The notes under the pieces are model-generated. The model worked only from the letters and a program-made list of their open reading frames with translations, had not been told where the DNA came from and made no database searches. This document shows, piece by piece, positions 30,911-46,177 of a stretch of DNA of 59,797 bases. Location of the stretch: the NCBI GenBank assembly GCA_902795045.1, contig CADBJU010000009.1:1-59797 (forward strand), in the 5' to 3' direction. A program made the position numbers and the translations under genes. The stretch is from Oscillospiraceae bacterium. GTDB lineage: Bacteria > Bacillota > Clostridia > Oscillospirales > Oscillospiraceae. Position 1 is the first letter of the stretch. Each line of letters opens with the position of its first letter.

Positions 30911-31013
30911 GAATGGGGCGGCGATTGGACGAATAGAAAAGATTTCCAGCATTTTGAGCTGCCGTCCGAAGTCACAGGGAAGTATTCTGAAATGTATGCA
31001 AAGTAGTCCAAAG

Positions 31014-31063
31014 GCAAAAAACTCCGGCGTATTCGGTCGATTTGTTCCGAACACGCCGGAATT
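31014..31063 (-). terminator. Terminator of the RiPP operon
   Basis: On the minus strand, TTCCGGCGT-GTTCGG pairs with CCGAAT-ACGCCGGA, and six T follow (31016-31021). It lies 40 bases after the short LanM stop and closes the operon. Confidence 0.88.
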
Positions 31064-31105
31064 TATTGCCCCTTATGGCTTTTTCCCGCTCTTTGCAGTA
31101 CAGGG

Positions 31106-33061
31106 TCAGGACAGCTCGGCGCAGCATAGCATCACGCCCGCGATGCCAACATTTCCACGCAGGAAGGCCGGGAGAAAATACTGCTTGCGCCCCTCTCTGA
31201 AAACCATGTACGCGCCGTTTTTTTTCTTTCGATCATACATCCACTTCAACAGCTGGCGGGCCTTGTTCAACGCGGTGGGATTCCCTCCCAAGCCAGCCGC
31301 CAAGCAGGCTGCCGCACGCCCGGCCAAGCCGCCGGACAGGATATCGGTGTCCGGCCATGATCGGTCTGCTGTCTCAAATACAGTCTCCAGTGTCTTTTCG
31401 CTATGCTCTCCGATGTTCCAGTGCTTGAATGCTTCGAGAATTTGCGCGCTTTCCCTGTCTCCCGCGTCCCGGCAGTATTCCAGCGCCCACAGGAATCCTG
31501 CAAGTCCGTCCTCAAAGCCAAAGTCGCCGTCAAAGCGCCGTGCGATGACCCGTTCCTCAGGCGGGCATGGGTATTCATCCAGCAGATAAGTGCCGAAGGT
31601 CAGCATATCCCGCAGGCAGGCGTCTGCAAGCTCGAGCGCGAGCGCCGTGTCCGTTTCTCTCAGCAGCGAGGATCGAGAGGCCGCGCGGCAGAAAACCCCG
31701 ATGCCGGAAAAACCCCGCGCAAGCCCGAAAAGGCTCCCCGTTTTCCCGTCGATCATCGGTACATGCCACAAGCTGCAGCCACCGGAGAGCGGGATGCGCT
31801 CAGCCCACAATGCATGAAGCGCTTCCGCTGCCTCACCGACAGCGATCTCCTTAGAAAGCGGCTCCGAGAGTGCTTTCGGCTCAATGACAGGAGCGTGCAA
31901 AAACTGCGCTGTGGGGTCTGTCCAGGCGTCGATGTGCCGAAGACTTGCGCGAATATAAGCGCACTGCACGGCAAGATCCCTCTCGTCCATGTTTTGCATA
32001 CGCTCTTTGGCATACTCGATCGGACTGACGCACAAGAAATCGTCGATCAGACAGGCATTCCGCCTGTCCCCGTGAAGGGCACGCTCACCAGCGTAAAACC
32101 AGAAATAGGGAACATCGCCCTCCTTCACGCAGGACGTTTCCCAATCAAGGATCGGCTGCCATTGACGCCGCTGCTCCCTGTCAAGGCCTTTTTCCAGGCG
32201 CTTCAGTACCCGTTTTCTCTCTGCGTCAGATCCGGCGGAGGAATACGCGGCGATGATGGCGTTATATGTCCCTGTGGAGCGCAGGATGTACCGGGCGGCA
32301 AAATATCTGTAACACTCCAGGATGGACGAGACGGCAGCCCGGTTTTCCCGTATTGCCCGATAAGCGCTCCGAAATCCGTCAAGGAAGTTGTTCTCGTATC
32401 CCAGGGGGGTGCAGTTTCCTCCCGGAAGGAGGGGGCTTTTCTGGAGCTGAGCATAAAAACGCGGCAAAACCATACATTCTCCCACCGACATCCGATATTC
32501 CGGAAACACCTCGCCATAGTCCGCGGGAAAGTCCCCGGCACCGCCGAAGCCTGCCGCTTTTGCGCACAGGAGCGTTTCCGTGTCTATGACGCATGGTCTG
32601 TCGCCTGCCGGGATGACATTAAAGCAGTGCATATCGGTGCTTCCCAGGGCGTAAAACACGGCGGTCAGTCTGCCGAGCCATGCATAAAACACTGCCCGTT
32701 CCGCGCCCTCCGCCGGTAGTCTCCGCTCCGTTTCCTTCTGGAAGGCATACTCCCCGCCGCTGATCTGCTCCGGCACCAGCCGCTCACCGAACAGCAGCTC
32801 GTTGAGCTGCCCGAGAAGCTCTGTCCCGGCTCCGTCTCTCGGTTTATAGTAGATCGTTCCCGCCGCCGTATCCAGTTTGAGAACCGCCTCGCCATGCAGG
32901 TGGCGATCGCCGGTCTCCGATATTTTTTTTATTTCAACAGGATCGTCGCCCTGAAAAAAGCGTTGGGCGATCTCCAGTCGGTGATGCTCGAAGCGCTCGC
33001 GCAGGAGGCGGTAAAATTCATTGTCCCGTTCCATCATGCTGTTATCGGTCGATCCTCTCAC
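31106..33061 (-). CDS. Short LanM-like lanthipeptide dehydratase with degenerate cyclase domain
   Basis: A 651-residue LanM relative. LanM enzymes phosphorylate and eliminate Ser/Thr of a precursor, then form thioether rings. The dehydratase domain is present from IYYKPRDG to the kinase-like centre LGSTDMHCFNVIPAGD and CVIDTETLL, which keep Asp, His, Asn, Asp and Glu. About 145 N-terminal residues of a full LanM are missing. The C-terminal LanC part is short: FEDGLAGFLWALEY and ILSGGLAGRAAACL are seen, but the usual Cys-His-Gly reads Ser-Gly-Gly and the WCxG module is absent, so zinc cannot bind normally. The start is GTG 33061 (AGGG 8 bases upstream) or ATG 33037. Last gene of the operon. 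Confidence 0.82.
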   Translation of the reverse strand: MRGSTDNSMMERDNEFYRLLRERFEHHRLEIAQRFFQGDDPVEIKKISETGDRHLHGEAVLKLDTAAGTIYYKPRDGAGTELLGQLNELLFGERLVPEQISGGEYAFQKETERRLPAEGAERAVFYAWLGRLTAVFYALGSTDMHCFNVIPAGDRPCVIDTETLLCAKAAGFGGAGDFPADYGEVFPEYRMSVGECMVLPRFYAQLQKSPLLPGGNCTPLGYENNFLDGFRSAYRAIRENRAAVSSILECYRYFAARYILRSTGTYNAIIAAYSSAGSDAERKRVLKRLEKGLDREQRRQWQPILDWETSCVKEGDVPYFWFYAGERALHGDRRNACLIDDFLCVSPIEYAKERMQNMDERDLAVQCAYIRASLRHIDAWTDPTAQFLHAPVIEPKALSEPLSKEIAVGEAAEALHALWAERIPLSGGCSLWHVPMIDGKTGSLFGLARGFSGIGVFCRAASRSSLLRETDTALALELADACLRDMLTFGTYLLDEYPCPPEERVIARRFDGDFGFEDGLAGFLWALEYCRDAGDRESAQILEAFKHWNIGEHSEKTLETVFETADRSWPDTDILSGGLAGRAAACLAAGLGGNPTALNKARQLLKWMYDRKKKNGAYMVFREGRKQYFLPAFLRGNVGIAGVMLCCAELS

Positions 33062-33797
33062 GGAGCTTTCCCTTTTTCCCCCATCTTCCGATCAAAACGA
33101 ACGCGATGACCGTCAGAACAACAAACACGGCATACGAAACGCCTGAAATAACACGCAGCGGCTGGATGAGCGACAGATAGGGCAGTGCCATGACCTGCTC
33201 CGTCGTCATGCTTCCCATGCGCGGACCGCCTGCGGCTTCGATCAGTGCAAAGTGCCACAGCTCAAAGACCGTGTGCAGGATGATCGGTATCACGAGCGAC
33301 AGGATACGGTCGCCTGCGCTCCCCGCCGCCAGGGAACGGCTGTAAAAGAAACCCATGACCACGGCAAACAGGATATGATAGGGCAGAATCGTCATCATAA
33401 GTCCGTTCGCGCCCAAGAAAAACATCGTGATGATCCCCTCCGTAAGGGTAAAGCCCACAGCGATCAGGCAGGCAGCGATCACCACATCATAGCGGCAGAC
33501 GATCTCCGCTGTGTCCCGCACGGCGAAACGCAGCGCAAAATATTTGGATATCTCCTTCACAAGTGCGTATTCCAGAAAGCCTGTCAAAAAGCCGCACAGC
33601 AGCGGATGCATACCATGGAAATCGGGAACGAGCAGGCCAAACAGGACCGGGAGGATCCCGGTCAGCGCGCCGATCCCCAGCAGGCATCCCAGGGAGCGGC
33701 CCGAAAATTTTGTTCCGGTTTTTTTCCGCATCAACCACCATGTGATCAGCGTATTGACGGCCACAAAGACGAACAGCAGCAAAATGATCCTCAACAT
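33042..33797 (-). CDS. PrsW-like intramembrane metalloprotease
   Basis: A 251-residue protein with about seven hydrophobic segments. It matches PrsW, the protease that cleaves anti-sigma factor RsiW at site 1 to release an ECF sigma factor. Motifs in order are VKEISKYFALRF (PrsW has EExxK; the first Glu is Lys here), GFTLTEG, LPYHILFAVVMGFFYSRS, and IPIILHTVFEL in place of H...D. It follows the ECF sigma gene with a 7-base overlap, supporting a sigma-release role. Alternatives are leader processing or self-immunity. The ATG at 33797 is chosen because GGGAG lies 8 bases upstream. Confidence 0.7.
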   Translation of the reverse strand: MLRIILLLFVFVAVNTLITWWLMRKKTGTKFSGRSLGCLLGIGALTGILPVLFGLLVPDFHGMHPLLCGFLTGFLEYALVKEISKYFALRFAVRDTAEIVCRYDVVIAACLIAVGFTLTEGIITMFFLGANGLMMTILPYHILFAVVMGFFYSRSLAAGSAGDRILSLVIPIILHTVFELWHFALIEAAGGPRMGSMTTEQVMALPYLSLIQPLRVISGVSYAVFVVLTVIAFVLIGRWGKKGKLRERIDR

Positions 33798-34288
33798 GAT
33801 GTTTTCTCCCAAGATAACATAAGATTCAGCGCTTTCAGCGCTTTTTCATGCCGCAGCTTGACCGCACCGTAGCTCAAACGCATCAAACAGGCGATTTCTG
33901 TCAGCGGAAGCTCTTTGTAATAGTGCAGGATGATAATGTCCCTCTGGTCTTTGTCAAGCCGCGCCAGTGCTTCCGCAAGCTCCCGCAGCGCTTCCTCCCG
34001 CAGCAGTTTCTCTTCTATTGTGCCGCTCTCGTCAGACTCCTCCAAAAGCTCCTCCGGCGCGCCTTTGCGGCGAAGATGATCCGTCAGCGTATTGCGGCTG
34101 ATGGTATAGATCCATGTGGACGCAGACGCCTTTTTCTCATCAAAGCCTGAAAGCGCCCGTGTTGCTTTCAAAAAGACCTCGGAGGTCAGATCCTCGGCGT
34201 CCTCCCGGTTATCCAGGCGGGACTGAAAAAAACGCAGCACCCGATCGTGATATCTCCGATACAATTCCTCGGCGGTGATTGTGGTCAT
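33791..34288 (-). CDS. ECF-type RNA polymerase sigma factor
   Basis: A 165-residue sigma-70 family factor of the extracytoplasmic class. Region 2 (about 8-75) includes YHDRVLRFFQSRLDNREDAEDLTSEVFLKA and STWIYTISRNTLTDHLRR. Region 4 (about 105-155) includes LDKDQRDIIILHYYKELPLTEIACLMRLSYGAVKLRHEKALKAL, given here only in outline: it is the helix-turn-helix that reads the -35 box. No membrane-bound anti-sigma gene is adjacent; its start overlaps the stop of a 63-residue gene by ATGA and its end overlaps the PrsW-like gene. It is the obvious candidate to drive the RiPP cluster. Confidence 0.88.
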   Translation of the reverse strand: MTTITAEELYRRYHDRVLRFFQSRLDNREDAEDLTSEVFLKATRALSGFDEKKASASTWIYTISRNTLTDHLRRKGAPEELLEESDESGTIEEKLLREEALRELAEALARLDKDQRDIIILHYYKELPLTEIACLMRLSYGAVKLRHEKALKALNLMLSWEKTSC

Positions 34289-34476
34289 AGGCGCAGATCC
34301 TCGGGGGCCGGCAGACGCCGCCCATCGGTCGGATCACCGGCCGCGGCGAGCCGCGCCGCCTCTTCGTCGGTGATATCTTCGCCCCAGCGGCATTCCGTAT
34401 CGTCGATGAGCGCCTGCAGCGCAGGGTCATGCGCAAATCGCTGCATCGCAAAGAGCTCCTTCAGAAGCTTTTCCAT
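34285..34476 (-). CDS. 63-residue acidic protein coupled to the sigma factor
   Basis: A small soluble protein, MEKLLKELFAMQRFAHDPAL and on, with helical N-terminal half and a second half that reads DITDEEAARLAAAGDPTDGR. There is no membrane segment, cysteine pair or known domain; one Cys lies at about position 28. The DEEAARLAAAGD stretch resembles the end of a RiPP leader, so it could be a precursor or recognition protein for the adjacent radical SAM enzyme. A soluble anti-sigma role is the other idea. GGAGGAG precedes the ATG, it begins 6 bases after the radical SAM gene and overlaps the sigma start by ATGA. Confidence 0.6.
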   Translation of the reverse strand: MEKLLKELFAMQRFAHDPALQALIDDTECRWGEDITDEEAARLAAAGDPTDGRRLPAPEDLRL

Positions 34477-34482
34477 GGCTCT

Positions 34483-35559
34483 TCACTCCTCCACCACATG
34501 CCAGCATTGCGGATCCCGGCCGTAGTAATCGCCGGTCACCGCCGCGGCGATGGCCGGACAACCGCGGCACCAGGGCTCCAGCTTGCAGCGGGCGCAGTCG
34601 GCAAAGCGGTCATACTGCCGGTAGCGTGTTTTTGCCTGCGTCCACATCTCCGTGAGATCGTCGGTGAAGATATTGCCCAGCGTGGAGCTCTCCATACGTC
34701 GGCAGGCCATGACCGTGCCGTCGGCGGAGATCGCCATAGTGGCGTTTGCGCAGTGGCAGCCGGCGGGCATATGATCGCCGGGCCTGTGACAGTACGCGGG
34801 AGGATGGAACTTGCCCTCCTCATAGAGATACAGGGCCAGCAGATGATCCTTGAGCGTAAAATTCGTTAAGCTGCCGCATAGCTTTGCCACCTGCCTTTTT
34901 TGAAAGTAGGTCTCCAGCAGGGCGCGGTATTCCATCGGGGGGATGGCGTTGTGCTTCTCATCGGAGGTCGGGACATAGCGGGCAAAGCCGAAGTGGTCGG
35001 CGCCGGCCCGCTCCACGGCGTCCATCACGTCGGGAAGCTCCCTGTAATTTTTTTCCGAAACGGTCATGCTTACCACCGACTGTATCCCCGCCGCACGCAG
35101 CAGTGGGAAGACCTCCATCGTTTTCCGGAAGCTGCCCGGCATACGGAACCAGTCGTGGGTCTGCTCCATGCCGTCGATAGAGACCTGATAGGCAACACAG
35201 CCGGTATCCTTCAGACGGCGGCAAATCTCCTCATTCAGATGGAAGGGATTGCCCATCAGGAAATAGGGCTGCTTTTTCTCCTTCATGAGCTCCGCGAGCT
35301 TCCAGAAATCCGGACACAGAAGCGGGTCGCCGCCGGTGATATGCCAGTTCGGGCGCATGTCCATCCGGCCCAGGAAGCTCTCGACCTTCCGAATGACCTC
35401 CTGCATCTGCGCGAAATCCATACTCACGAGGGGCTTTTTGTTATCCTCCGCGAAGATATAACAATGGCGGCAGCGCTGGTCACAGTTGTCGGTGATATGC
35501 CACTGGACACCGAAGAGGCCCTCCTCGTTTTCCCGCAGGGGATTGGTTCCTGTGTTCAT
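34483..35559 (-). CDS. Radical SAM/SPASM peptide maturase
   Basis: A 358-residue radical SAM enzyme. The 4Fe-4S/SAM motif CxxxCxxC is CDQRCRHC, preceded by GVQWHITDN; glycine-rich SAM contacts follow in WHITGGDPLL. The C-terminal SPASM domain has CHCANATMAISADGTVMACR and CARCKLEPWCRGCPA, suited to two auxiliary clusters. SPASM enzymes of RiPP clusters make Cys-to-alpha-carbon thioethers, C-C or C-O crosslinks, or epimerise residues. The sequence around the SAM motif recalls enzymes of the ACGX-type class, but no ACG-repeat peptide is here. The ATG at 35559 overlaps the stop of the upstream gene (ATGA) with AAGGTG upstream. Confidence 0.88.
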   Translation of the reverse strand: MNTGTNPLRENEEGLFGVQWHITDNCDQRCRHCYIFAEDNKKPLVSMDFAQMQEVIRKVESFLGRMDMRPNWHITGGDPLLCPDFWKLAELMKEKKQPYFLMGNPFHLNEEICRRLKDTGCVAYQVSIDGMEQTHDWFRMPGSFRKTMEVFPLLRAAGIQSVVSMTVSEKNYRELPDVMDAVERAGADHFGFARYVPTSDEKHNAIPPMEYRALLETYFQKRQVAKLCGSLTNFTLKDHLLALYLYEEGKFHPPAYCHRPGDHMPAGCHCANATMAISADGTVMACRRMESSTLGNIFTDDLTEMWTQAKTRYRQYDRFADCARCKLEPWCRGCPAIAAAVTGDYYGRDPQCWHVVEE

Positions 35560-36314
35560 CGGCGCACCTTCTTCCTCATGCAAAAATCTTCGATGGCCTC
35601 GGTCAGGAGCACATAGCGGTCCAAGCCCGCGTCGTGCACAGCCTGCGCCTCAACGGAGCCAAGGTTGAGCCTGATGGCGCGGCGGGTTATCAGGATACGG
35701 CTGAGAAACACCTTTTGCTGGAAATCCGTGATGGCAATACGGGGATCATACCAGGTCTGCAGAAGCTTTTCGGCGGTCTCGGTGAGGATGGGCTGCATAT
35801 CCTCCTCATAGTTCAGATTCGGATGGCCGGTCTTGTAAAAGGCGCCGATATTGATCACGGAGGAGCAGAAAAAGCGCAGGATGTAATCCAGGTCGTCCGC
35901 GGCGGCCTGGCCGTGGTTGGAGTCGGTCGTCATGAAGAGCAGGGTGGGCTTTCCCAGCAGCTCGAGACGGTGCGACATACCGGTAAGCCTGTCGAGCACG
36001 CATTTGGTAAAGCCGGACATGCGCCCCATATACACGGGGCTGCCGAGAAACAGAATGTCACAGTCGCGCATTTTCTGCTTGAGCATACCCATGTCGTCCA
36101 CGCTGTCCAGAGGACAAATGCCGCTGCGGAAGCAGCTGTGGCAGCTGCGGCAGAAATCGAGGCGCACGTCCGCGGCGGTCAGGCGCTCATAGGAGACGGT
36201 TTCGCCGTCTTCGGCGGCTCTCTGGCGAAAGGCCGCGGCAAAGCGGTCGGAGAGCTGGGCGGTGGTGGAGCGCTCTCCGGCGGCGGAGCCGATCAGTGAG
36301 AATACCTTGATCAT
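35556..36314 (-). CDS. Flavodoxin-fold NAD(P)H-dependent oxidoreductase
   Basis: A 252-residue flavodoxin-like FMN protein. The FMN phosphate loop is IGSAAGERSTTAQL, CRSCHSCFRSGICPLD is the usual cysteine set before the second strand, and DILFLGSPVYMGRMSGFTKCVLDR is the conserved NADPH-dependent FMN reductase segment. The C-terminal ~70 residues form an added helical domain. Its place between LanM and the radical SAM gene, with ATGA overlaps on both sides, suggests it supplies electrons to the Fe-S enzyme or reduces dehydrated residues of the peptide (both inference). Confidence 0.82.
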   Translation of the reverse strand: MIKVFSLIGSAAGERSTTAQLSDRFAAAFRQRAAEDGETVSYERLTAADVRLDFCRSCHSCFRSGICPLDSVDDMGMLKQKMRDCDILFLGSPVYMGRMSGFTKCVLDRLTGMSHRLELLGKPTLLFMTTDSNHGQAAADDLDYILRFFCSSVINIGAFYKTGHPNLNYEEDMQPILTETAEKLLQTWYDPRIAITDFQQKVFLSRILITRRAIRLNLGSVEAQAVHDAGLDRYVLLTEAIEDFCMRKKVRR

Positions 36315-39010
36315 ATATTGTTTCCTCCCAGCTCCGGTGTACGGAGATATTCCGACGCCGCAAGGCCGACGCCAAGGCTGCCGACCCAGAGAGACGGGTC
36401 AAAGAAGCTGCGGATACCGGGATCACTCACGAGGAAGCTGCCCTCCCGGACGGCGCGGGCAAGCATGGCCCCCAGCACCTGACCGGCGCGCGCTGTGCTG
36501 CCGGTGCGCAAAAGGCAGAGGACCGTCAGGGCGTTGCCCTCATACAGGGTATCGAAGCGGCCAAGCTCTTTTTCCTCAAGGAGGCTGGAAAGGGCGGTGT
36601 CCCGCAGGGCCTGAGCCGCGGCCTGCTCCGGAAGGCGCTGCGCGATGTAATCCGCCGCCAGGGCGATGCCCGCCGCCTGACGGCCCCGATCAGCCATCCA
36701 GCGGAGCTTCACGGCGCTGTCCGGCCAGCCGTGCAGATCGTCCCGGTAGTCCCGGCGAAGCTGCGCGAGGATCGCCGAGACCTTTTCGGCGCAGCGGCTG
36801 TCCCCCAGGGCCTTATAGGCCGCTGTCAGGGCCACGGCGAGGCCGGCGGCTCCCTTGAACAGATCCGGGATCTCCGGCACATCGGCGGCCAGAAGCTTCC
36901 CGGCGCACAGGCGCAGGCACGCCTCCCGCTCCGGTGAGGAGAAGGGCAGCTCGGCCAGACCCACTGTCAGACCTGCCAGGCCCTCGCTGAGGGAGGGATC
37001 CTCATGCCAGTAAGGGCTGAATTTTGTGAGGACGGGAAGCAGGCGCTCCGCCGTTTCGCGCGCCTGCGGGACCCCGGCGCGCTCCATGGCGGCAAGCCCC
37101 CAGAGGACACCGCCGTAGCCATTATAGAGACCCATGGGCAGGCGCGGCGCGTTTTTCAGCAGCTCCTCATCGAGCTTTGAAAGGGACGAAAGCGAGTCAG
37201 CGATGGGCCGGACGCATTGCTGCGCGATTTCCAGGGCCTCGGCATGGAGCGAGGAGAGGGCCTGGGTACGCAGGAGGGCGGCACAGAAGGCGCCTGCCTC
37301 AGCGTGGCTCCCCATTGCGCCGAAGGGGCGGAGGCCATGGAGGGTGATGGCGGTGCTGAGCCAGAAGGGCTGCCCGGCCGGCGTGTACATCCTGTCGGTC
37401 AGGAGCGCGCGGAAAAGACTGACAGCCGCGGCACGCGCATCCTCACGCGGCACAGGGGCGCCGGCGATGGGGGCGGGCGGAAGCTCCTTCGGCGCATCCA
37501 GGGGCGCGTGCGCAAAGGCGATGCGGATGATGTCCTCCTCACAGCGAAGCTCCGCTTCCGAGAGCCGGTCAAGGCTCTTCTCTGTCATACCCAGCGGACT
37601 GTCCGAAAAATATCCCTCTTTGAGAAGCTCCTCCGTATCCTCACCGCATAGATCCGTGCTCTCCAGACTGGTGCAGAAGTAGGGAATATCCCCGAGCCGC
37701 AGGCAGGCGGCCTCATGGTCCACCTGTTCCCGGAAGGTCTCCGCGCCGATCTGTTCAAAGGGCAGCGCCAGACGGTGAAGGATCTTTTCCTGCTGCGCCC
37801 TGCTTTGCAGCGTTTCCGGCCGATAGAGACTTTGCTGGATCAGCGCGTAGAACATGGTGTTTCGCATCAGGATGCGCACAGTGGAGCCGCCCCGGGCCCG
37901 CAGGAGGGCCTTGATCTCCTCTCGGTGGGCAAGCACCCGGCCATAGCCATCCCGGAAGCCGGCGGCAAAGCGGCCCTCATAGCCCTGGACCGTGTGAGTC
38001 TTCCCGTCCAGGAGCGGGAGACAGGCCGCGCCCGGGCGCTCACTGTAAAGGGGCGAAAACAGCGGCTTGCCGTACATGCGCACAGGCAGGATCCCGATGC
38101 GGTAGACCGACTGGCCCAGGGCGTGGGCGCTGGGCTCCAACTGCTTGTTCCTTGCCTGCTTTTCAAAGGAGGGGGTAATCAAGGTCTCCAGATCGATCAC
38201 GGCGGGCCTGTCGCCGCAGGCCATGATGTTCTCCAGGTGCATGTCGATGCTGCCGAGCCCATGGAGAAGCGCCGTCAGGACACCGAAATGATAATAATAA
38301 TCCGCGACAGCGCTCTCGGTATCCACGCTCGCGCGGCGCAGCCGGGATACGAAAGCGACATTGTTTATCTGAACGACCTCGGCAGCGACGGTACAGTCCG
38401 AAAACCAGCGTTCCACGATCTCGCGGTACACCATGTCCAGACCACAGTCATGGGGCTTGTAATAGAAGACGCCTCCGTCTGTCCATACGCCCGTTACGGC
38501 CCGTCCATGGCGGTGCTGATCCCCGCCGAAGTCAGAAAAGCGTTCGATTTTTGTAAAGGGTTTTCCCCCGAGAAGCCGTTGGGAGATTTCCTCCCGGCAG
38601 GCGGTCAGAGCATCGAAAAACTCGATCCAGCTCGCACGGAAATTGGGGAGGATATGCGCCGCATATTCTGCCGCCAGCGGATAGCGCTCCTGCAGGAGCG
38701 TCTCCGCGCGCCCGCTTTGGGCAAGCTCCGCGGCAAGCTGCTCTTCGAGAGAGTCGTCCGTGCTGCCCAGCATGGCGCTGACCGGGTCGCGCTCGGCCGC
38801 CCGCTCCCGCAGCTCCTGGGCAAGCGCCTGCGCATACAGCAGCTCCAGGCGCTTTTCACAGTTGCGCCGCAGGCAGTCCCGCGCCTCGTCCGTCAGGAGC
38901 GCGGCGGCTGCCGGGCGTTCCTCTTCGATCTCCCTTAATACACGCGCGGCTGCTGCCTTCGTAAAATCGAGGCAGCCGCTCTGTCTTAAAATTTCAATTC
39001 TGTCTTTCAT
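36311..39010 (-). CDS. LanM-type lanthipeptide synthetase with zinc-free cyclase domain
   Basis: An 899-residue class II lanthipeptide synthetase. The N-terminal dehydratase (DUF4135-like) is complete: VFYYKPHD, LGSIDMHLENIMACGD and AVIDLETLI carry Lys, Asp, His, Asn, Asp and Glu for phosphorylation of Ser/Thr. The C-terminal LanC-like domain keeps its glycine-rich repeats (NGYGGVLWGL, LSEGLAGLTVGL, FKGAAGLAVAL, SLGVGLAASEYLR). The zinc ligands are gone: HG reads KG, WCxG reads RGRQ, and CHG reads YEG. It should dehydrate precursors but not close rings by the usual mechanism. The start has a weak ribosome binding site behind a hairpin. It probably acts on the Nif11-type precursors just upstream. 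Confidence 0.88.
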   Translation of the reverse strand: MKDRIEILRQSGCLDFTKAAAARVLREIEEERPAAAALLTDEARDCLRRNCEKRLELLYAQALAQELRERAAERDPVSAMLGSTDDSLEEQLAAELAQSGRAETLLQERYPLAAEYAAHILPNFRASWIEFFDALTACREEISQRLLGGKPFTKIERFSDFGGDQHRHGRAVTGVWTDGGVFYYKPHDCGLDMVYREIVERWFSDCTVAAEVVQINNVAFVSRLRRASVDTESAVADYYYHFGVLTALLHGLGSIDMHLENIMACGDRPAVIDLETLITPSFEKQARNKQLEPSAHALGQSVYRIGILPVRMYGKPLFSPLYSERPGAACLPLLDGKTHTVQGYEGRFAAGFRDGYGRVLAHREEIKALLRARGGSTVRILMRNTMFYALIQQSLYRPETLQSRAQQEKILHRLALPFEQIGAETFREQVDHEAACLRLGDIPYFCTSLESTDLCGEDTEELLKEGYFSDSPLGMTEKSLDRLSEAELRCEEDIIRIAFAHAPLDAPKELPPAPIAGAPVPREDARAAAVSLFRALLTDRMYTPAGQPFWLSTAITLHGLRPFGAMGSHAEAGAFCAALLRTQALSSLHAEALEIAQQCVRPIADSLSSLSKLDEELLKNAPRLPMGLYNGYGGVLWGLAAMERAGVPQARETAERLLPVLTKFSPYWHEDPSLSEGLAGLTVGLAELPFSSPEREACLRLCAGKLLAADVPEIPDLFKGAAGLAVALTAAYKALGDSRCAEKVSAILAQLRRDYRDDLHGWPDSAVKLRWMADRGRQAAGIALAADYIAQRLPEQAAAQALRDTALSSLLEEKELGRFDTLYEGNALTVLCLLRTGSTARAGQVLGAMLARAVREGSFLVSDPGIRSFFDPSLWVGSLGVGLAASEYLRTPELGGNNI

Positions 39011-39023
39011 ATCCTATTTTTTT

Positions 39024-39052
39024 GCGGTGCGGCCTTCTTGCGGCCACACCGC
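39024..39052 (-). promoter_or_regulatory. Hairpin between precursor genes and LanM
   Basis: GCGGTG-GGCC with matching GGCC-CACCGC (39024-39052). On the minus strand it is followed by A rather than T, so it is probably a stabilising or processing stem that keeps synthetase levels below precursor levels. LanM starts 14 bases later. Confidence 0.55.
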
Positions 39053-39122
39053 ATTTCATACCATAGCCTTTTTCAAATCTCCTGCCTGCTTTATACCGCA
39101 AGCGTGCGGTCTGCAAGCACGA

Positions 39123-39230
39123 TCAGCCAATTTCGCTCATGGTAGCGCCTACGGCTACGCTGGCCGCAGAAGCCCACATAACGGCAGTGGCAATAGCGGC
39201 AGTGCAGGAGGTGCCGCCGGCACACAACCG
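39123..39230 (-). pseudogene. Leaderless third lanthipeptide core (precursor remnant)
   Basis: Read on the minus strand, the frame that ends in TGA at 39123-39125 encodes C-A-GG-TSCTAAIATAVMWAS followed by AASVAVGATMSEIG. This is the GG cleavage site and TSC start seen in both intact precursors, with a new 29-residue core. The 77-residue leader is missing; upstream the frame meets a stop at the end of precursor 1. It is therefore a deleted third precursor or a stored core cassette. A rare start (TTG at about 39225-39227) could only give the bare core. Confidence 0.75.
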
Positions 39231-39256
39231 ACAAGCATGAGCGGTCTTAGTTCTGA

Positions 39257-39589
39257 TTAGTCAAAGGTAGTACCGGCATCTATGCTTACGACTACCATTC
39301 CTCCGGATGCGACAGAGGCCGTAACGGAAACAACAACCGTGAGCGCGATGCAGGAGGTGCCGCCGGCGAGCTTGCCCAGCTCCTCTTCGGAGACATCCTC
39401 GTTGGGCTTGTTGATCTCCCTGACCTGCTCGGGGCTGATCTCATAGCCCAGTTCTTTCGCCGCCTTGCTGACTGCGGCGAACGCATCCTTCTCCCCGGCA
39501 TCAAGCAGGGCCTTGACCTTTTCGTTCATTTGGGCGGCAAAGGCCTTGTCGCCGCGCATTCTCTCGACATACTCTTTTGCTGTTTTCAC
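39257..39589 (-). CDS. Nif11-type lanthipeptide precursor 1
   Basis: A 110-residue RiPP precursor. The leader (1-77) belongs to the Nif11-like group, with MNEKVKALLDAGEKDAFAAV, KELGYEISPEQVREI and the end SEEELGKLAGG. The predicted core (78-110) starts TSC and has a single cysteine, ten Ser/Thr residues and an Asp near each end of its last third. The start codon is GTG with AAAGGAG 10 bases upstream. The leader differs from that of precursor 2 at only 7 of 77 positions while the cores diverge, the usual pattern of leader-guided promiscuous synthetases. Secretion and cleavage after GG would be by the adjacent C39 ABC transporter. Confidence 0.9.
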   Translation of the reverse strand: MKTAKEYVERMRGDKAFAAQMNEKVKALLDAGEKDAFAAVSKAAKELGYEISPEQVREINKPNEDVSEEELGKLAGGTSCIALTVVVSVTASVASGGMVVVSIDAGTTFD

Positions 39590-39614
39590 TTTGTTTTTCT
39601 CCTTTCAAATTCTG

Positions 39615-39679
39615 TTATTCATGCGGCAAATCAATAAGCGTACTGTTGTATATTTTTTAATGAATTGCCGCATGAATAA
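39615..39679. repeat. Inverted repeat upstream of precursor 1
   Basis: TTATTCATGCGGCAA (39615-39629) and its perfect inverse TTGCCGCATGAATAA (39665-39679), 15 bp each, with a 35-base A/T-rich centre. It lies just before the precursor 1 ribosome binding site. Confidence 0.7.
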
Positions 39680-39733
39680 TTGTCATATTTTTCGGTTGCC
39701 GCGTCAGCGGCGAGAAAAATGGCATTTTATAAT

Positions 39734-39793
39734 CTTATTACTCCGGCTGTACGGGTGTATGGTTTGCGGATGTTTAATTGCCGGAGTAATAAG
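39734..39793. repeat. Inverted repeat downstream of precursor 2
   Basis: CTTATTACTCCGGC (39734-39747) and its perfect inverse GCCGGAGTAATAAG (39780-39793), 14 bp each. It lies 39 bases after the precursor 2 stop. Together with 39615-39679 it fills the gap between the two precursors. No T tract follows on the minus strand. Confidence 0.7.
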
Positions 39794-39831
39794 CTTTGTG
39801 CCGCAGGCACGCAGGCGGCAAAATGATGATC

Positions 39832-40143
39832 TTATGCCAACGACGCGGTCACGCCAACAGAGATGGCGGCGGAGGCCGTAAGCGCAGAGACGGCGACCGG
39901 GATGCAGGAGGTGCCGCCGGCAAGCTTGCCCAGCTCTTCCTCGGAGATGTCCTCGTTGGGCTTGTTGATCTCCCTGACCTGCTCAGGGCTGAGTTCATAG
40001 CCCAGCTCCTTCGCCGCCTTGCTGACTGCGGCGAACGCATCCTTCTCCCCGGCAGCAAGCAGGGCCTTGACCTTTTCGTTCATTTGGGCGGCAAAGTCCT
40101 TGTCGCTCTGCATTCTTTCGATGTACTCTTTTGCGGTTTTCAT
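39832..40143 (-). CDS. Nif11-type lanthipeptide precursor 2
   Basis: A 103-residue precursor with the same 77-residue leader type, ending EEELGKLAGG, and a 26-residue core that starts TSCIPVAVSALTASAAISVG. The core has one cysteine at position 3 and six further Ser/Thr. The ATG is preceded by AAAGGAG. A ring, if formed, would have to join Cys3 to a downstream dehydrated residue, the reverse of nisin-type order but known in prochlorosins. It is the first precursor after the transporter genes. Confidence 0.9.
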   Translation of the reverse strand: MKTAKEYIERMQSDKDFAAQMNEKVKALLAAGEKDAFAAVSKAAKELGYELSPEQVREINKPNEDISEEELGKLAGGTSCIPVAVSALTASAAISVGVTASLA

Positions 40144-40237
40144 TTGTGGTTTCTCCTTTCATGAATGGCTCTACCTATTTATACGGATAAAATGCCGATG
40201 TGGCAGCATTTTTTGTGAAAAAGCTAAAAACATTTTG

Positions 40238-42433
40238 TCAGGCTCCCGGCGCGTTGATCTGCTGCCGGGCCACCAGCTCCGCAAAGAAGCCCTTTTTGGC
40301 GATCAGCTCATCGTAGCTGCCGGACTCCACGATCCTCCCCCCGTCGAGTGCGAGGATGCGGTCACAGCTGCGGATGGTGGACAGGCGGTGCGCGATGACG
40401 ATGCGGGTGCAGCCCATGGCGTTGAGCGAATCGGTCACGACCTTCTGGGTGATGTTGTCAAGGGCGCTGGTGGCCTCGTCGAACATAAGGATATTGGCCT
40501 TCATGGCGATGGCGCGGGCAATGATGAGCCGCTGCCGCTGGCCGCCGGATAGCCCGCCTCCGCCCTCTGCAATGAAAGTGTGCATCCCCATGGGAAGGGA
40601 GCGTATAAAGTCTGCGATCCCGGCCTTCTCCGCCGCCTCCCAGGCATCGTCCATACGCAGCCACGGCGCGGAGATCGTGATATTGGCAAAAATATCACCG
40701 GGAAAGAGCTTACCGTCCTGAAGCACGATGCCAATATTTCGGCGCAGGGAGCGCTTGTCGATCCGCCTGAGATCGACACCGTCATAGGTGATCATGCCCT
40801 GCTGGGGCGTCAGGAAGCCCAGCAGCAACTTCATGAGCGTGGACTTGCCGCAGCCGGTCTTTCCCACCACGGCGACATATTCCCCGGGCTGTATGGTCAG
40901 GTTCAGATCGCTCAGGATCGCCGGACCGTCCTCCGAGTAGCGGAAGGTGATGTTGTTCAGCTCGATCTCGCCGTTCAGCGAGGAAATCGTCTTTTGCCCG
41001 CTGCTCTGCTCCGGCGTCTGACGGAGGATTGGCTCACCCATTTCCAGAACCGGCCGCATATAGGAAAAGCTGCTTCCGCACAGAGCCAGCGTATCGACGC
41101 AGGACATCATGAGTCCAAAGGCAGAGGCAAACACGGCGTACTGCGCCACAGACAAGCCGCTGCGGTACGCGACGATAAAGGTCCACAGCGTTCCCAGCAG
41201 ACGGATGAAGGTGAGAAGCTGCGGCCGTATACTGGCCGGGAACTGAACCAGAAAGCTTGTGCCCGCCTTGTCCCGGTACACCTCCAGCCATTTGGCATAG
41301 GCCATATCCTCGCTGCCGGAGAGCTTGATTTTCTGTATGCCATTGATGAAGTCATAGACGACGCTGTTGTTTTTCGATGCGCTCGAAAACACCGCGCGAA
41401 ACCGCTTACGCTCCTGAATGACCGTGAGGGCAAACAGCGCCAGCGACGCGGCCAGCACGGTGAGCGCCGGCACGATCAGCGCTGAGGACGCAGAGAAGAT
41501 CGGGTAGATGTTCACAAGGGAAAGCGCCGCCGTCAGTACGCCGGTCAAAAGGATGTCGCAAAGAAGCGACGGCAGCATATTGAGGCAGTTTGTCTGCTGC
41601 GCAAGGCCGCCGGTGCTCTTGTCCCCGAAAAAGGTTGTGGGCAGATTCATCAGCCGGGAAAACACCGCGTTCTGCGCGACGGTGTCCAGCCGGTTCCGGA
41701 TGCGCTCGGTCAGCGAGCTCTTGGAAGAGCGCATGAGCCACCCGCCGATCGCCGTGCAGAAAAGCATCACGGCAAGTGAGACCAGCATGGCGGTCTGTCC
41801 TGTGGGAATGACACTGGCAAAGGCGATCCTTGTCACCAGCGGTGTCAGGATGCCGACCAGGGATACGCCCAGTCCCGCGAGAATAATCAGGATCAAATCG
41901 CCGGGATGAAGCTCATGCAAAAGGAAGCGGATGTACTCCCGCCCTGTCATCTCCCCTTGCGGGAGAGGCTTGTAAAAGCAGTATGCCTCTTCTTCAAACA
42001 TGTCCTTGTTGTCCCCGGTGATTATGACGGGTTCGCCGGTTTTCGGGTCTATGTAATAATAACCGCCGAACCAGTCCGGCAGCAGGGCCAGCACGCGCCC
42101 TTCTCCCTTCACCGCAGCAAGCAGCGGACCGTCCCCATCCTTCCACCAGCCTTCAGACAGGGAGATGCGGCGCTTCATGGCCCCGGAGGGCTGCGTGACG
42201 GCATCGATCTGCGCAATGATGTTCTCGTATTCCGGCGGATTCTTCGGCACTTCCAGCTTAAAGTATTGCAGGATCAGCTCAATCTGGCGGATCGTCTCCT
42301 GCGCGGCAGTCTCCGCCTCATAGTAACGATCCGTCCGGCCCATGACCCGGTCGCCCAGGCTGCGGAGATTCCGCTCCACCATTTTCCGTACCGATGTGGC
42401 AAAGGTCTGAAGCTGTTCTCCAAATAGACTCAT
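40238..42433 (-). CDS. NHLM-type bacteriocin ABC transporter, second subunit
   Basis: A 731-residue ABC half-transporter of the second NHLM/NHLP export type. A ~150-residue N-terminal soluble domain without protease residues precedes six membrane segments (about 170-430). The ATPase carries Walker A GKTGCGKST, signature LSGGQRQR and Walker B ILMFDEATSALD. It is thought to pair with the peptidase-containing subunit encoded upstream. Its start lies 16 bases after that gene. The next downstream genes are the precursors, 94 bases away. Confidence 0.9.
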   Translation of the reverse strand: MSLFGEQLQTFATSVRKMVERNLRSLGDRVMGRTDRYYEAETAAQETIRQIELILQYFKLEVPKNPPEYENIIAQIDAVTQPSGAMKRRISLSEGWWKDGDGPLLAAVKGEGRVLALLPDWFGGYYYIDPKTGEPVIITGDNKDMFEEEAYCFYKPLPQGEMTGREYIRFLLHELHPGDLILIILAGLGVSLVGILTPLVTRIAFASVIPTGQTAMLVSLAVMLFCTAIGGWLMRSSKSSLTERIRNRLDTVAQNAVFSRLMNLPTTFFGDKSTGGLAQQTNCLNMLPSLLCDILLTGVLTAALSLVNIYPIFSASSALIVPALTVLAASLALFALTVIQERKRFRAVFSSASKNNSVVYDFINGIQKIKLSGSEDMAYAKWLEVYRDKAGTSFLVQFPASIRPQLLTFIRLLGTLWTFIVAYRSGLSVAQYAVFASAFGLMMSCVDTLALCGSSFSYMRPVLEMGEPILRQTPEQSSGQKTISSLNGEIELNNITFRYSEDGPAILSDLNLTIQPGEYVAVVGKTGCGKSTLMKLLLGFLTPQQGMITYDGVDLRRIDKRSLRRNIGIVLQDGKLFPGDIFANITISAPWLRMDDAWEAAEKAGIADFIRSLPMGMHTFIAEGGGGLSGGQRQRLIIARAIAMKANILMFDEATSALDNITQKVVTDSLNAMGCTRIVIAHRLSTIRSCDRILALDGGRIVESGSYDELIAKKGFFAELVARQQINAPGA

Positions 42434-42449
42434 ACTCGCTGCCCTCTTC

Positions 42450-44609
42450 TCATTCTGTCGTGATGAGGGTCTTGTAGAGGCCCTCCTCTTGTATCAGCTC
42501 TTCGTGCGTGCCGCGCTGCACCACCTGTCCATGATCCATCACCAGGATCTCGTCGCAGTCCCGGATGGTGGAAAGCCTATGGGCTACAATGATGCAGGTG
42601 ATGCCGCGGTCATGGATGAAGCGGGATACATCATATTCCGTGCGGGCATCCAGAGCGCTCGTCGCCTCATCCAGAATAATGATGGACGGATCGACCGCCA
42701 GCACGCGGGCAATCTCGATGCGCTGCCGCTGACCGCCTGAAAGATCATGGCCGCCCTCTTGCAGGACTCGCTGATAACCGCCCTTTCGGCAGACGATGTC
42801 CGTATGGATCTCCGCATCCTTGGCCGCGAGGATCATGTCGTAGTCTTCAATGGAGCTGTCCCACATTTTGATGTTATTTTCTATTGTATCGGAAAACAGG
42901 ACCGGCTCCTGATCCACCATGGCCAGCGAGCGCTTGAATACCGGACGCGGGAGCTTGGACATGGGGCTGCCGTCAAACAGGATCTCCCCGCTCCAGGGCT
43001 GATACAGGCCGGAGAGCAGCTTCGCGATGGTGGATTTCCCTGAGCCGGAACCGCCTACGAAGGCCACGCGCTTACCCGGCGTCAGCTCCAGGTTAAAATC
43101 CCGGATCAGCGGTTCGGCGAGCTTGGAATACCCGAAGGTAACATTTTTCATCTCCACATGGCCGGACAGCTTTCTCGCGTCCTTCAGCTCTTCCTGGGAA
43201 ACCCCTCCGCCGAGAGCGCTGTCCTCGGGGTAATCGAGCACATCATTGATCCGGTCAAGCGAGGCGCGCATTTCCTCCAGGCTCTGCCCCGCGGCAATCA
43301 GTTCGTTCACGGGCCGCATAAAGGCGCTCATAAACGACTGGAACGCCAGCAGCAGGCCCGCGGTGAATTTATGCTCCATCATGAGCCATAAGCCCATCGT
43401 CAGGACCGTGATATTTGACAGCTCCTGCAGGAGCATGGGCAGTGTACCCAGAAAACAGTTGACCGTCGCAAATTTTGCCTTTGCCCGGATCACGGATGCC
43501 TGGAAGCCGCTCCAACGCTCAAAGAACCCGCTCTCCGCGCCGGCGGCCTTGATGGTCTCCACCATGCTGATGCCGGAGACGGTCACCGCGTCCAACTTTG
43601 CCTGGTCGCGCATCTGCGCGGCGGAAATTTCCACGCGCTTCTGGCTGATGAGGCGCGCCACGAAGAGATTGATCGCCACGGTGGCGATCCCCACCGCGGT
43701 CAGCAAAGGGCTGTACTCGATCATCACGAACAGATAAAACGCCAGCATCACCAGATTGATAAGCGTCGGCGCAAGCCTCGTGATGAGCGTGGCCGCCACC
43801 GTGTCATTGGCTGCCTGCCGGTTTGCCAGATCACCGCTCATACGCTGCGAAAAGAATTGCATCGGCATGCGAAACAGGTGATGCATAAATCTCGCGTTGG
43901 CTTTGACTGCCAGCTTGCCCGTCGCTCGGATAATGAGCACCTGATTTACGATCGCGGCAATGAGCTGGAACAGGATGACCGCGGCGAAAAAGAGTAAAAA
44001 TCCATAGTACCAGCTCTGCCGACTGCCACTGAGAATATCATCCGTGAAGATCCTCGAAAAGACAGGGATCAGCATGCCCCCCGCCGCCGCAAGAGCGCTG
44101 GTGAGCATGATGAGCCTGACGAGCTGACCGTTGCCGGAAAGCCCCTCGCGGAGGAAATCCGTCGTTGTTTTCTTTTTTCCGTCCGCTATAAAGGCTTCTC
44201 CCGGACACATCTCCAGGCAGATGCCGCTGTAGTATTTCCGAAACTCCTCGACCGGCATACGCACCCGCCCTTTGGCAGGGTCGTTCAGGTACGCATAGTC
44301 CTTTTTGAAACCGTCAAGCACCACAAAGTGGTTCATATTCCAGAAAATGATCGCCGGGCAGCTTGCGGCTTCCCGAAGCCTTTCGACTGTGTAGCGCTTG
44401 GCCTTGCATTCCATCCCGTATCGCCTGGCTGCCTTCAGGATGTTCAGTGCGCTGCTCCCGTCGCGGGAGACGCCGCATTCTACGCGCACCTGATCCAACG
44501 GCACCCATTTATGATAGTATGCCATGACCATTGCGAGCGAAGCCGCGCCGCATTCCAGCGCCTCCATCTGAAGGATCACCGGCACCTTTACCACTTTTTT
44601 GTCTGCCAT
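42450..44609 (-). CDS. NHLM-type bacteriocin ABC transporter with C39 leader peptidase
   Basis: A 719-residue exporter with three parts. The N-terminal C39 cysteine protease has Cys20 in LECGAASLAM, His in NMNHFVVLDG and Asp in YLNDPAKGR, and cuts after double glycine. Six membrane segments follow (about 165-440). The ATPase has GGSGSGKST, LSGGQRQR and IIILDEATSALD. The substrate motif LAGG in both precursors, and perhaps SVAGG in the 23.8-kb protein, fits this enzyme. It is the second gene of the HlyD-ABC-ABC set. Confidence 0.93.
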   Translation of the reverse strand: MADKKVVKVPVILQMEALECGAASLAMVMAYYHKWVPLDQVRVECGVSRDGSSALNILKAARRYGMECKAKRYTVERLREAASCPAIIFWNMNHFVVLDGFKKDYAYLNDPAKGRVRMPVEEFRKYYSGICLEMCPGEAFIADGKKKTTTDFLREGLSGNGQLVRLIMLTSALAAAGGMLIPVFSRIFTDDILSGSRQSWYYGFLLFFAAVILFQLIAAIVNQVLIIRATGKLAVKANARFMHHLFRMPMQFFSQRMSGDLANRQAANDTVAATLITRLAPTLINLVMLAFYLFVMIEYSPLLTAVGIATVAINLFVARLISQKRVEISAAQMRDQAKLDAVTVSGISMVETIKAAGAESGFFERWSGFQASVIRAKAKFATVNCFLGTLPMLLQELSNITVLTMGLWLMMEHKFTAGLLLAFQSFMSAFMRPVNELIAAGQSLEEMRASLDRINDVLDYPEDSALGGGVSQEELKDARKLSGHVEMKNVTFGYSKLAEPLIRDFNLELTPGKRVAFVGGSGSGKSTIAKLLSGLYQPWSGEILFDGSPMSKLPRPVFKRSLAMVDQEPVLFSDTIENNIKMWDSSIEDYDMILAAKDAEIHTDIVCRKGGYQRVLQEGGHDLSGGQRQRIEIARVLAVDPSIIILDEATSALDARTEYDVSRFIHDRGITCIIVAHRLSTIRDCDEILVMDHGQVVQRGTHEELIQEEGLYKTLITTE

Positions 44610-44620
44610 GGCTTTTCCTC

Positions 44621-45238
44621 TTATCGCAGCAGAAAGCTGATGGGATGTACGTTATCCGTCACGATCGTCACATCTACAAGAGCCCAGCTTTCGTTATACT
44701 CGTCACTGTCCAGCTGACCGGCTGCAACCCAGGAATAGTCAGCTTCGACACAGTTGTCCACGACCCACCGGCTTCCAAACTCGCCCAGGATCTCCTCCCG
44801 ACTGTAAGGCACCGGCTCAACAGAGGCCACAACGCCCCGCACGGCTTTTTTCCCGGGACGACTGACGATGATCTCCCTGCCCATGAGATCGTCCCCGGAG
44901 AATTCATAGGCATTGAGGAAAAAGTAGGCATCGCAGCGCTGACGCTCCTCGTCCGGCATATCCGGCTCTGACCCAAAAATATCCCGGCCATAGTATGTAA
45001 GGGCATTCTCCCTCCGATTCTCAATCGAGGTCATCATACCGCTGACACTTTTTGTGACGGGCAGCGTCCCGGTGAAGCCCCATATGATCAATGCAGCGAG
45101 CACCAGCGTCAAAGCAATCACCAGAATCAGCGTGCCGGGCTTGACGATGCGGATATACGTGTCCAGCTCCTCAGGCGAGCGCACACGGTCGCGGTCCCCC
45201 GCGGTGAATATACCGCCTGTTTTCTGTTTCGTGTCCAT
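44621..45238 (-). CDS. NHLM-type HlyD-family secretion accessory protein
   Basis: A 205-residue membrane-fusion-like protein of the NHLM system. A short cytoplasmic stretch with PEELDTYIRIVKPG, one membrane helix (about 35-57) and an external domain follow. It lacks the long coiled coil of classic HlyD, as is usual for this type in Firmicutes. It is first in the export operon and lies 11 bases before the peptidase-ABC gene. An upstream promoter is not clear. Confidence 0.82.
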   Translation of the reverse strand: MDTKQKTGGIFTAGDRDRVRSPEELDTYIRIVKPGTLILVIALTLVLAALIIWGFTGTLPVTKSVSGMMTSIENRRENALTYYGRDIFGSEPDMPDEERQRCDAYFFLNAYEFSGDDLMGREIIVSRPGKKAVRGVVASVEPVPYSREEILGEFGSRWVVDNCVEADYSWVAAGQLDSDEYNESWALVDVTIVTDNVHPISFLLR

Positions 45239-46091: not shown

Positions 46092-46177
46092 TGGTGCCGG
46101 TGGTGGGACTCGAACCCACACGATGTCGCCATCGGCGGATTTTGAATCCGCTACGTCTACCATTCCATCACACCGGC
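46092..46177 (-). tRNA. tRNA-Leu (anticodon CAA)
   Basis: A class II tRNA on the minus strand. The acceptor GCCGGTG pairs with CACCGGC. Anticodon stem GCGGA/TCCGC encloses TTCAAAA with CAA at 46142-46144. A long variable arm, a GGTTCGAGTCCC T arm and encoded CCA (46092-46094) are present. Confidence 0.95.

Follow-up and report, generated by a model that had tools for sequence, protein, structure and literature searches.

A composite RiPP locus in an Oscillospiraceae bacterium with two zinc-less LanM enzymes, a LanJB-like flavoprotein and an ACGX-family radical SAM enzyme

What kind of peptide would be made by a gene cluster that combines two LanM-type enzymes with a flavoprotein and a radical S-adenosylmethionine (SAM) enzyme? 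The question is raised by a 59,797-nt stretch of DNA from an Oscillospiraceae bacterium (the window), one (CADBJU010000009.1, C9) of the 56 contigs that make up a genome of 2.75 Mb. A preliminary description of this DNA had reported a one-strand composite cluster for ribosomally synthesised and post-translationally modified peptides (RiPPs), and all of the named genes were confirmed there, reading along the minus strand between 45238 and 31106. The cluster probably makes hydrophobic peptides rich in D-amino acids by dehydration, reduction and radical modification.

In the proposed pathway, the precursors would be guided by Nif11-type leaders to a pair of LanM-type enzymes that serve as dehydratases. 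LanM1 and LanM2 would convert Ser and Thr to dehydroalanine (Dha) and dehydrobutyrine (Dhb), which the LanJB-type flavoprotein would then reduce to D-alanine (D-Ala) and D-aminobutyrate (D-Abu). The radical SAM/SPASM enzyme of the ACGX family, closely associated with the reductase, may act on the core, either on the lone Cys or close to it. Finally, the C39 transporter of the NHLM exporter would cut after Gly-Gly and export the products, whose probable role is that of a (multi-component) bacteriocin. The mass of each converted residue should change by -18 and then +2, a net -16, which corrects the earlier expectation of "multiples of 18 and 2". The parts of this system are known, while their combination is new, as is the consistent loss of the lanthionine-forming site. 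As the preliminary description had supposed, no account of this gene set appears among the matches listed in the open-access literature.

Gene content and synteny

The principal features, all on the minus strand, are:

44621..45238 (-), short HlyD-like membrane-fusion protein, 205 aa; partial match to TIGR03794
42450..44609 (-), NHLM ATP-binding cassette (ABC) protein 1, C39 peptidase/permease/ATPase; TIGR03796 918 bits (cut-off 853), PF03412
40238..42433 (-), NHLM ABC2 permease/ATPase; TIGR03797 651 bits, below the cut-off of 709
39832..40143 (-), precursor 1, Nif11-type leader, core ..AGG-TSCIPVAVSALTASAAISVGVTASLA; TIGR03798 33.3 bits (cut-off 32.3)
39257..39589 (-), precursor 2, Nif11-type leader, core ..AGG-TSCIALTVVVSVTASVASGGMVVVSIDAGTTFD; TIGR03798 32.7 bits (cut-off 32.3)
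39123..39221 (-), leaderless core relic AGG-TSCTAAIATAVMWASAASVAVGATMSEIG, recognised from its sequence; GGCGGCACCTCCTGC repeat at 39204-39218
36311..39010 (-), LanM1, 899 aa; TIGR03897 318 bits (cut-off 304); full dehydratase residues, cyclase domain without zinc ligands
35556..36314 (-), LanJB-like FMN reductase with a CxxCxxCx5C motif; PF03358 58 bits; nearest relatives beside LanM
34483..35559 (-), radical SAM/SPASM enzyme, ACGX family, 358 aa from ATG; TIGR04340 435 bits (cut-off 400)
31106..33061 (-), LanM2, listed at 651 aa and probably starting at ATG 33037; PF13575 147 bits; shortened zinc-less cyclase domain

The genes follow one another in the order short HlyD, ABC1, ABC2, precursors 1 and 2, core relic, LanM1, flavoprotein and radical SAM/SPASM enzyme; a 63-aa protein, an extracytoplasmic function (ECF) sigma factor and a PrsW-like protein then precede LanM2 and a terminator.

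The order HlyD-ABC1-ABC2-LanM1-flavoprotein-radical SAM-(PrsW)-LanM2 is found in three genomes: that of the window, a goat jejunum metagenome-assembled genome (MAG; G843, locus L116) and a sheep MAG of the same genus (G481, loci L048-L049). Its recurrence in two further genomes makes the cluster more than a product of chance and bears out the earlier proposal that the two LanM types, the flavoprotein and the radical SAM enzyme belong together. L116 is the best of the loci found by scanning genome contigs with a flavoprotein alignment, a scan of which the best 80 of 271 relatives were kept. It repeats the window's order without the 63-aa/ECF pair, at identities of 76% (HlyD), 85% (ABC1), 79% (ABC2), 69% (LanM1), 76% (flavoprotein), 89% (radical SAM), 73% (PrsW) and 78% (LanM2). 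No precursor lies between ABC2 and LanM1 in G843; two are carried on two other contigs, 66% and 63% identical to precursor 1 and both with GGTSC. An orphan precursor of this genome (L205, 6093-7922 of G843:C32), away from the enzymes' contig, stands directly upstream of a gene that by eye resembles SAM synthetase.

The sheep MAG holds HlyD (57%), ABC1 (two pieces at 78-82%), ABC2 (73%), a single precursor (58%), LanM1 (61%) and LanM2 (68%), without the 63-aa, ECF and PrsW genes, and its flavoprotein (62%) and radical SAM enzyme (81%) form a single open reading frame (ORF) of 618 aa. The preliminary description had made its case depend on whether the enzymes occur together with precursors in other genomes, and matching Nif11-GG-(T/S)SC precursors were found in all three. 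A more distant Lachnospiraceae MAG (G844) combines HlyD, ABC1, ABC2, LanM1 (41%), four Nif11-like precursors, the flavoprotein (47%) and LanM2 (44%); that stretch gave no radical SAM match.

Within the genus, LanM2 has a match at E <= 1e-10 in 8 of 102 genomes, and the type with at least 50% identity is confined to the window's genome, G481 and G449; a LanM2 search of genome contigs found nothing. Relatives of the radical SAM enzyme occur at E <= 1e-30 in 9 of the 102, only G481 exceeding 50% identity besides the window's own. Among 400 family genomes the flavoprotein was matched only in the window's own at E <= 1e-25, a strict limit applied to a sample with few genomes of this genus. The bacterium itself most likely comes from the ruminant gut and is related to these MAGs.

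The export genes agree with a Nif11/NHLM RiPP system, with TIGR03798 and TIGR03796 above their cut-offs and TIGR03797 below. ABC1 is likely to cleave the leader after GG. The HlyD gene named earlier as part of the exporter set is present in a short form, which matches TIGR03794 over residues 18-70 only, at 29.7 bits (cut-off 156). A local truncation of the window's gene was ruled out as an explanation: HlyD proteins of 174-211 aa stand beside the exporters in related clusters, and the short form is the rule there.

LanM enzymes and the flavoprotein

Both LanM proteins align to LicM2 (6st5) and CylM (5dzt) and carry PF13575, the DUF4135 dehydratase domain. Each keeps 11 of 11 checked dehydratase residues, whose roles we take to be those established in the CylM work. 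At the positions presumed to bind zinc in LanC-type cyclases, each enzyme has none of the three ligands, so that neither shows the zinc site of a class II cyclase. In LanM1 the first cyclase motif reads RGRQAAG and the second LYEGN. LanM2, which reaches 178 bits against TIGR03897 (cut-off 304), lacks the middle of the cyclase domain altogether.

This loss extends to the whole set of 15 LanMs from flavoprotein- or LanM2-bearing loci, none of which has the full zinc set; four of them, from clusters with a B12-type radical SAM protein, retain one ligand, a Cys, and a frame-split LanM in G449:C101 was excluded from the tables. All four controls have the full set. One is a LanM of the genus, from G432, with C and CC; the others are the LanMs of three plasmids, with WCxG and CHG, in which the initial Cys was read by eye because the alignment places it off the column. 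The comparison indicates that the three LanMs next to plasmid flavoproteins keep the cyclase site, whereas the window branch does not. With the zinc ligands absent from both LanMs, the sequences give no reason to expect lanthionine as the main product. The earlier assignment to a class II lanthipeptide arrangement thus stands for the pairing of LanM with NHLM-type export in a composite RiPP locus, and needs qualifying for the cyclase.

The flavoprotein points to what may become of the dehydrated residues. LanM lies beside it in 9 of the 10 top loci among the best 80 of 271, the tenth (L119) ending at a contig edge just past the gene, and in none of the remaining 70, some of which are on short contigs. 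A plasmid search with the flavoprotein matched 23 records, and all three that were opened adjoin lanM: P. sordellii (the top match, 30.5% over 74% of the query), the L. sakei lactocin S plasmid and M. canis. According to PMC5808125, lactocin S contains three D-Ala derived from Ser codons, and CrnJ forms D-Ala and D-Abu. The cysteines C55, C58, C61 and C67 are kept in all eight flavoproteins of alignment A1. By these sequence comparisons the protein is LanJB-like.

The same enzymes would also fit an ordinary class II lanthipeptide with tailoring, in which the LanM(s) dehydrate and close one Cys ring, the flavoprotein reduces leftover Dha and Dhb and the radical enzyme has a minor part. LanM1 exceeds the cut-off of the LanM model, and every core has its Cys next to a Thr or Ser. 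Lactocin S reportedly contains rings together with D-Ala. Zinc-free cyclases are moreover known from class III, whose LanKC cyclases are functional without zinc ligands (PMC7268733), and lactocin S, encoded on a plasmid with a related flavoprotein, is a D-Ala-containing product (PMC5808125). A zinc-less cyclase domain can therefore work, which counts against the lanthionine-free pathway favoured here, and each core could conceivably form one ring through its only Cys; ring closure is nevertheless unlikely. The full zinc set is missing from 15 of 15 cluster LanMs and present in 4 of 4 controls, LanM2 has lost the middle of the domain, and no core could hold more than one ring, so that an ordinary class II product is on the whole unlikely.

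The dehydrate-and-reduce pathway preferred here has partial parallels among known systems. Carnolysin, bicereucin (with LanJB) and lactocin S likewise have a LanM and an enzyme of the FMN reductase family beside the precursor, with D-residues formed from Ser and Thr (PMC5808125). The window differs from these in having two LanMs, neither of which keeps the zinc ligands of the cyclase, in combining Nif11 leaders with export by NHLM transporters, in the single Cys of each core and in the coupling of a radical SAM enzyme to the reductase. Carnazolamide, a dehydrazole, involves a zinc-independent LanM-type enzyme, CcaM, and a radical SAM epimerase, so that its pathway, too, pairs a LanM dehydratase whose cyclase domain lacks zinc ligands with an enzyme of the radical SAM type (PMC10676384); unlike it, the window has no YcaO among its listed genes and has a LanJB-like reductase and a radical enzyme of the ACGX family. 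CcaM offers a precedent in that a LanM-type dehydratase without zinc works there alongside a radical SAM enzyme. The polytheonamide core is said to be hydrophobic, like the cores of the window. PoyF of polytheonamide and EmbM of phospeptin, the latter a cyclase-less LanM with a Nif11-leader substrate, are LanM-type enzymes without lanthionine formation, polytheonamide differing in its NHLP leader and phospeptin in its kinase-only enzyme (PMC9505594). The window differs from both in keeping the elimination residues and in having a reductase.

Precursor cores and the radical SAM enzyme

Both Nif11-type precursors of the preliminary description lie above the TIGR03798 cut-off. A 272-nt block is 90% identical between the two genes and the cores differ, which suggests a duplicated leader with variable cores. 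The third core reported alongside them (39221-39123) was rejected as a precursor gene; it lacks a leader and, as judged by eye, also a ribosome-binding site, and is regarded as a relic. G481 holds the reverse kind of relic, a leader start without a core.

Prochlorosins likewise combine a conserved leader with variable cores. Their enzyme, ProcM, is said to be a zinc cyclase that makes rings, whereas the window LanMs lack zinc ligands. The separation of the G843 precursors from their enzymes also resembles the prochlorosins, whose Nif11 precursors lie far from their LanM (PMC7268733).

The six cores of the window-type clusters (five intact, one relic) contain exactly one Cys each, at position 3 after GG, in the context TSC in five and SSC in one, within a hydrophobic stretch bearing Ser and Thr. 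This constant Cys is what suggests Cys-directed radical chemistry, and a single Cys per core is compatible with a Cys-to-carbon thioether of the sactipeptide or ranthipeptide type.

The radical enzyme resembles that of the ACGX system (TIGR04340/TIGR04341): it exceeds the TIGR04340 cut-off and keeps both CxxxCxxC and the SPASM cysteines. Members of this family occur in 27 of 394 genomes of the order at E <= 1e-60, the window's included. ACG-repeat peptides adjoin 10 of the 11 canonical ACGX loci that were opened (9 of 10 genomes; none in L074), and no LanM or flavoprotein relative was found among the ORFs of these 11. The window departs from this system in having no ACGX-repeat peptide: none of its ORFs under 160 aa contains two [AG]CG, a filter that finds one in 10 of the 11 canonical loci, and TIGR04341, the ACGX target model, exceeds its cut-off in none of the window, G481 and G843 genomes. 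This points to another peptide as the target, most simply the Nif11 precursors.

A radical SAM tree of 39 rows (one 161-aa row excluded as short, rows above 400 aa reduced to their last 360 residues) places the window, G843 and G481 in one clade (100/100), joined by L110 (97/98, with a long-branch warning at that node). L110, the nearest relative in the tree, stands beside NHLM exporters and a 78-aa ORF whose AGGAQC holds its only Cys. ACG-repeat peptides adjoin four of the nine genus loci; the other five have GG-C-rich precursors (L106 and L107), a short ORF (L110) or no candidate (L105 and L111). The L105-L107 branch shares an N-terminal extension. In L106 (3910-6547) and L107 (752-2921) this extension of the ACGX-lineage enzymes measures about 250-350 aa and matches no Pfam family, and both enzymes adjoin Nif11-like precursors with very Cys-rich cores (e.g. 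CCSRCGCYCGCG). The L107 precursor (TIGR03798, 29.5 bits) and radical SAM enzyme (375 bits) both fall below their cut-offs.

The radical enzyme could instead be an epimerase or cross-linker that acts along the hydrophobic core and not on Cys, with few residues dehydrated, in the manner of landornamide or polytheonamide. In this vein, the sister LanM/flavoprotein clusters, one of which lies in the same genome, have a B12-type radical SAM enzyme in five loci (74-78% identical); the one copy scanned has a B12-binding domain and reaches 498 bits against TIGR03975, the model for RiPP radical SAM C-methyltransferases. LanM-type and radical SAM enzymes also cooperate in the carnazolamide and polytheonamide pathways (PMC10676384, PMC9505594). 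The enzyme of the window nevertheless falls in the ACGX family, whose loci mostly hold Cys-containing repeats, and its next-best model is SbtM, at 186 bits, and not an epimerase model, which makes such a product distinctly improbable.

Several further observations weigh against the proposed pathway of dehydration, reduction and Cys-directed radical modification. The fused ORF of G481 is known from a single MAG record and may have arisen in the assembly. Kinship to LanJB is distant: only the P. sordellii protein stands out by score (101 bits), while those of L. sakei (61 bits) and M. canis (68 bits) are level with LanM-unlinked flavoproteins (of the seven tried, six reach 57-64 bits and the other 42), so LanJB cannot be told from other flavoproteins by similarity alone. 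The Cys motif, found in the P. sordellii protein and in seven LanM-unlinked flavoproteins, is absent from those of L. sakei and M. canis, a distribution that suggests an ancestral and not a diagnostic feature. Ser and Thr spacing in the six cores minus their first three residues, compared at six distances without correction, gives no alternating D/L pattern, with 12 pairs at distance 2 against 11.9 expected; adjacent pairs are depleted (5 against 12.4, about 1 in 700 shuffles) and pairs at distance 6 weakly enriched (16 against 9.9). The target candidates of the ACGX relatives were chosen with Cys or GG filters, which favours Cys-bearing ones, and other short ORFs exist near L110, L105, L111 and L074 outside the candidates judged. 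Lastly, the lone LanM2 of G449 is accompanied by a GGTSC precursor that contains additional Cys residues, and the fetched stretch holds no radical SAM relative, so that the Cys may belong to LanM2. At this locus (L050, G449:C152, 2287-4820) the LanM2-type gene adjoins a precursor-like ORF in which GGTSC is followed by a zinc-ribbon-like CxxC...H..C, and no exporter relative was found in the fetched 14 kb.

No product description for ACGX radical enzymes was found among the matches listed in the open-access literature. The short cores with their single Cys provide these enzymes with a candidate substrate for simple assays, and the reductase-radical SAM pair is directly testable.

Accessory genes, layout and related loci

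The remaining features, again on the minus strand, are:

40174..40185 (-), promoter-like CGTATAAATAGG box before precursor 1; a CGTATAAATA box likewise precedes the precursor of G481 and precursor A of G843
39731..39796 (-), hairpin between precursors 1 and 2, 17-nt arms; -21.7 kcal/mol, z -7.0
39615..39679 (-), hairpin immediately upstream of precursor 2, 23-nt arms; -25.6 kcal/mol, z -5.8
39023..39053 (-), hairpin upstream of LanM1; -26 kcal/mol, z -6.1
34285..34476 (-), 63-aa protein, ECF partner, not part of the core; no family match at E values up to 1
33791..34288 (-), ECF sigma factor, not part of the core; TIGR02937 113 bits
33042..33812 (-), PrsW-like membrane protein, likely start ATG 33797; PF13367 26.5 bits (cut-off 23.5)
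31012..31071 (-), intrinsic terminator; -39.7 kcal/mol, z -9.5, 0/200 shuffles

The 63-aa protein had been considered as a precursor or leader-binding partner, which is ruled out by the position of its relatives directly 5' of ECF genes in four of the five other genomes matched, away from this cluster type; the fifth match (G463) is antisense to a 404-aa ORF, without an ECF match. One of the four (G013) has the pair at an NHLM locus (L065, G013:C84, 2660-3736), between the ABC2 gene and a short GG-type ORF, a second link of the pair to NHLM genes. The preliminary description had given the cluster its own sigma switch. This part of its interpretation finds no support as a core feature, while the composite RiPP locus and the LanM/flavoprotein/radical SAM unit are retained: the 63-aa/ECF pair is missing from two of the three syntenic clusters (G481 and G843) and occurs elsewhere in four genomes, and the CGTATAAATA box precedes precursors in genomes with and without it. 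The other G843 precursor is preceded, by eye, by GTGACA-N17-TATAAT, and precursor 2 has no such box upstream. The pair looks like a strain-specific insertion, a local add-on.

A cell-envelope switch, in which detection of the peptide would lead PrsW to degrade an anti-sigma factor, with the ECF factor turning on the cluster, is suggested by the adjacency of the three genes and by the pair in G013, and is very improbable all the same. No membrane anti-sigma gene was recognised in the cluster, PrsW itself is missing from one of the syntenic clusters, and the promoter-like box is present both with and without the ECF gene. The PrsW-like protein scores 47 bits against NF033739 (cut-off 225). Its motif, which we take to be EExxK in PrsW, reads KExxK in the window and G843 copies and has EE in two copies from elsewhere, which makes protease action doubtful. 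The PrsW-like protein probably acts at the membrane, in immunity or in an accessory role.

The strong terminator reported after the last gene was confirmed. ATGA overlaps, said to prevail from LanM onward, occur at three of six junctions: LanM1/flavoprotein, 63-aa/ECF and, provided that the radical SAM gene starts at ATG 35559, flavoprotein/radical SAM. The other three are a 6-nt gap (radical SAM/63-aa), a 7-nt overlap (ECF/PrsW, with the start at ATG 33797) and a 4-nt gap (PrsW/LanM2, with the start at ATG 33037). The three hairpins at 39023-39796 are possible attenuators or processing sites that set the ratio of precursor to enzyme. An island at the tRNA-Leu gene (46092-46177) was rejected, the two flanks compared having no 14-mer in common, and the four proteins searched against a defence-system library gave 0 matches.

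Two further kinds of locus touch on the wider module. A second RiPP cluster of the window's genome (L052, G000:C6:3000-22999), with similar loci in G473, G453, G470 and G449, contains NHLM exporters, the B12-type radical SAM protein described above, a Nif11 precursor (core TTPTVATIVPAAGVTISVSSLATC), a LanJB-like flavoprotein and a LanM with one of three zinc ligands. In L121 (370-8786), a LanM, a PqqE-like radical SAM protein (100 bits, below the cut-off), a carbamoyltransferase, a GDSL lipase and a LanJB-like flavoprotein stand behind a precursor-like ORF ending in ..AGGLTPIIAYTLSTTATIIYFAVKKKW. Together, the C6-type and L121 loci look like a base module of LanM dehydratase plus LanJB that has been joined by different radical enzymes.

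It may tentatively be suggested, with somewhat less than even confidence, that gut bacteria harbour a lanthionine-free branch of class II RiPPs, in which zinc-less LanMs, LanJB and varied radical SAM enzymes (the ACGX type in one ORF with the reductase, a B12 C-methyltransferase, a PqqE-like enzyme, or none) yield hypermodified hydrophobic D-amino-acid peptides, with a single radical-modified Cys in the window type. If this were true, a lantibiotic synthetase could evolve into a plain dehydratase that feeds D-amino-acid formation, and the dehydrate-and-reduce module would be mixed with several radical SAM enzymes.

Another LanM/radical SAM hybrid was seen in L056 (G432:C58, 242-4694), where a LanM with complete zinc ligands has as neighbours a radical SAM/SPASM gene and a GG precursor rich in Cys, the core of which reads ESILTQTVQCPDTNECSNTCIRDCC after GGT.

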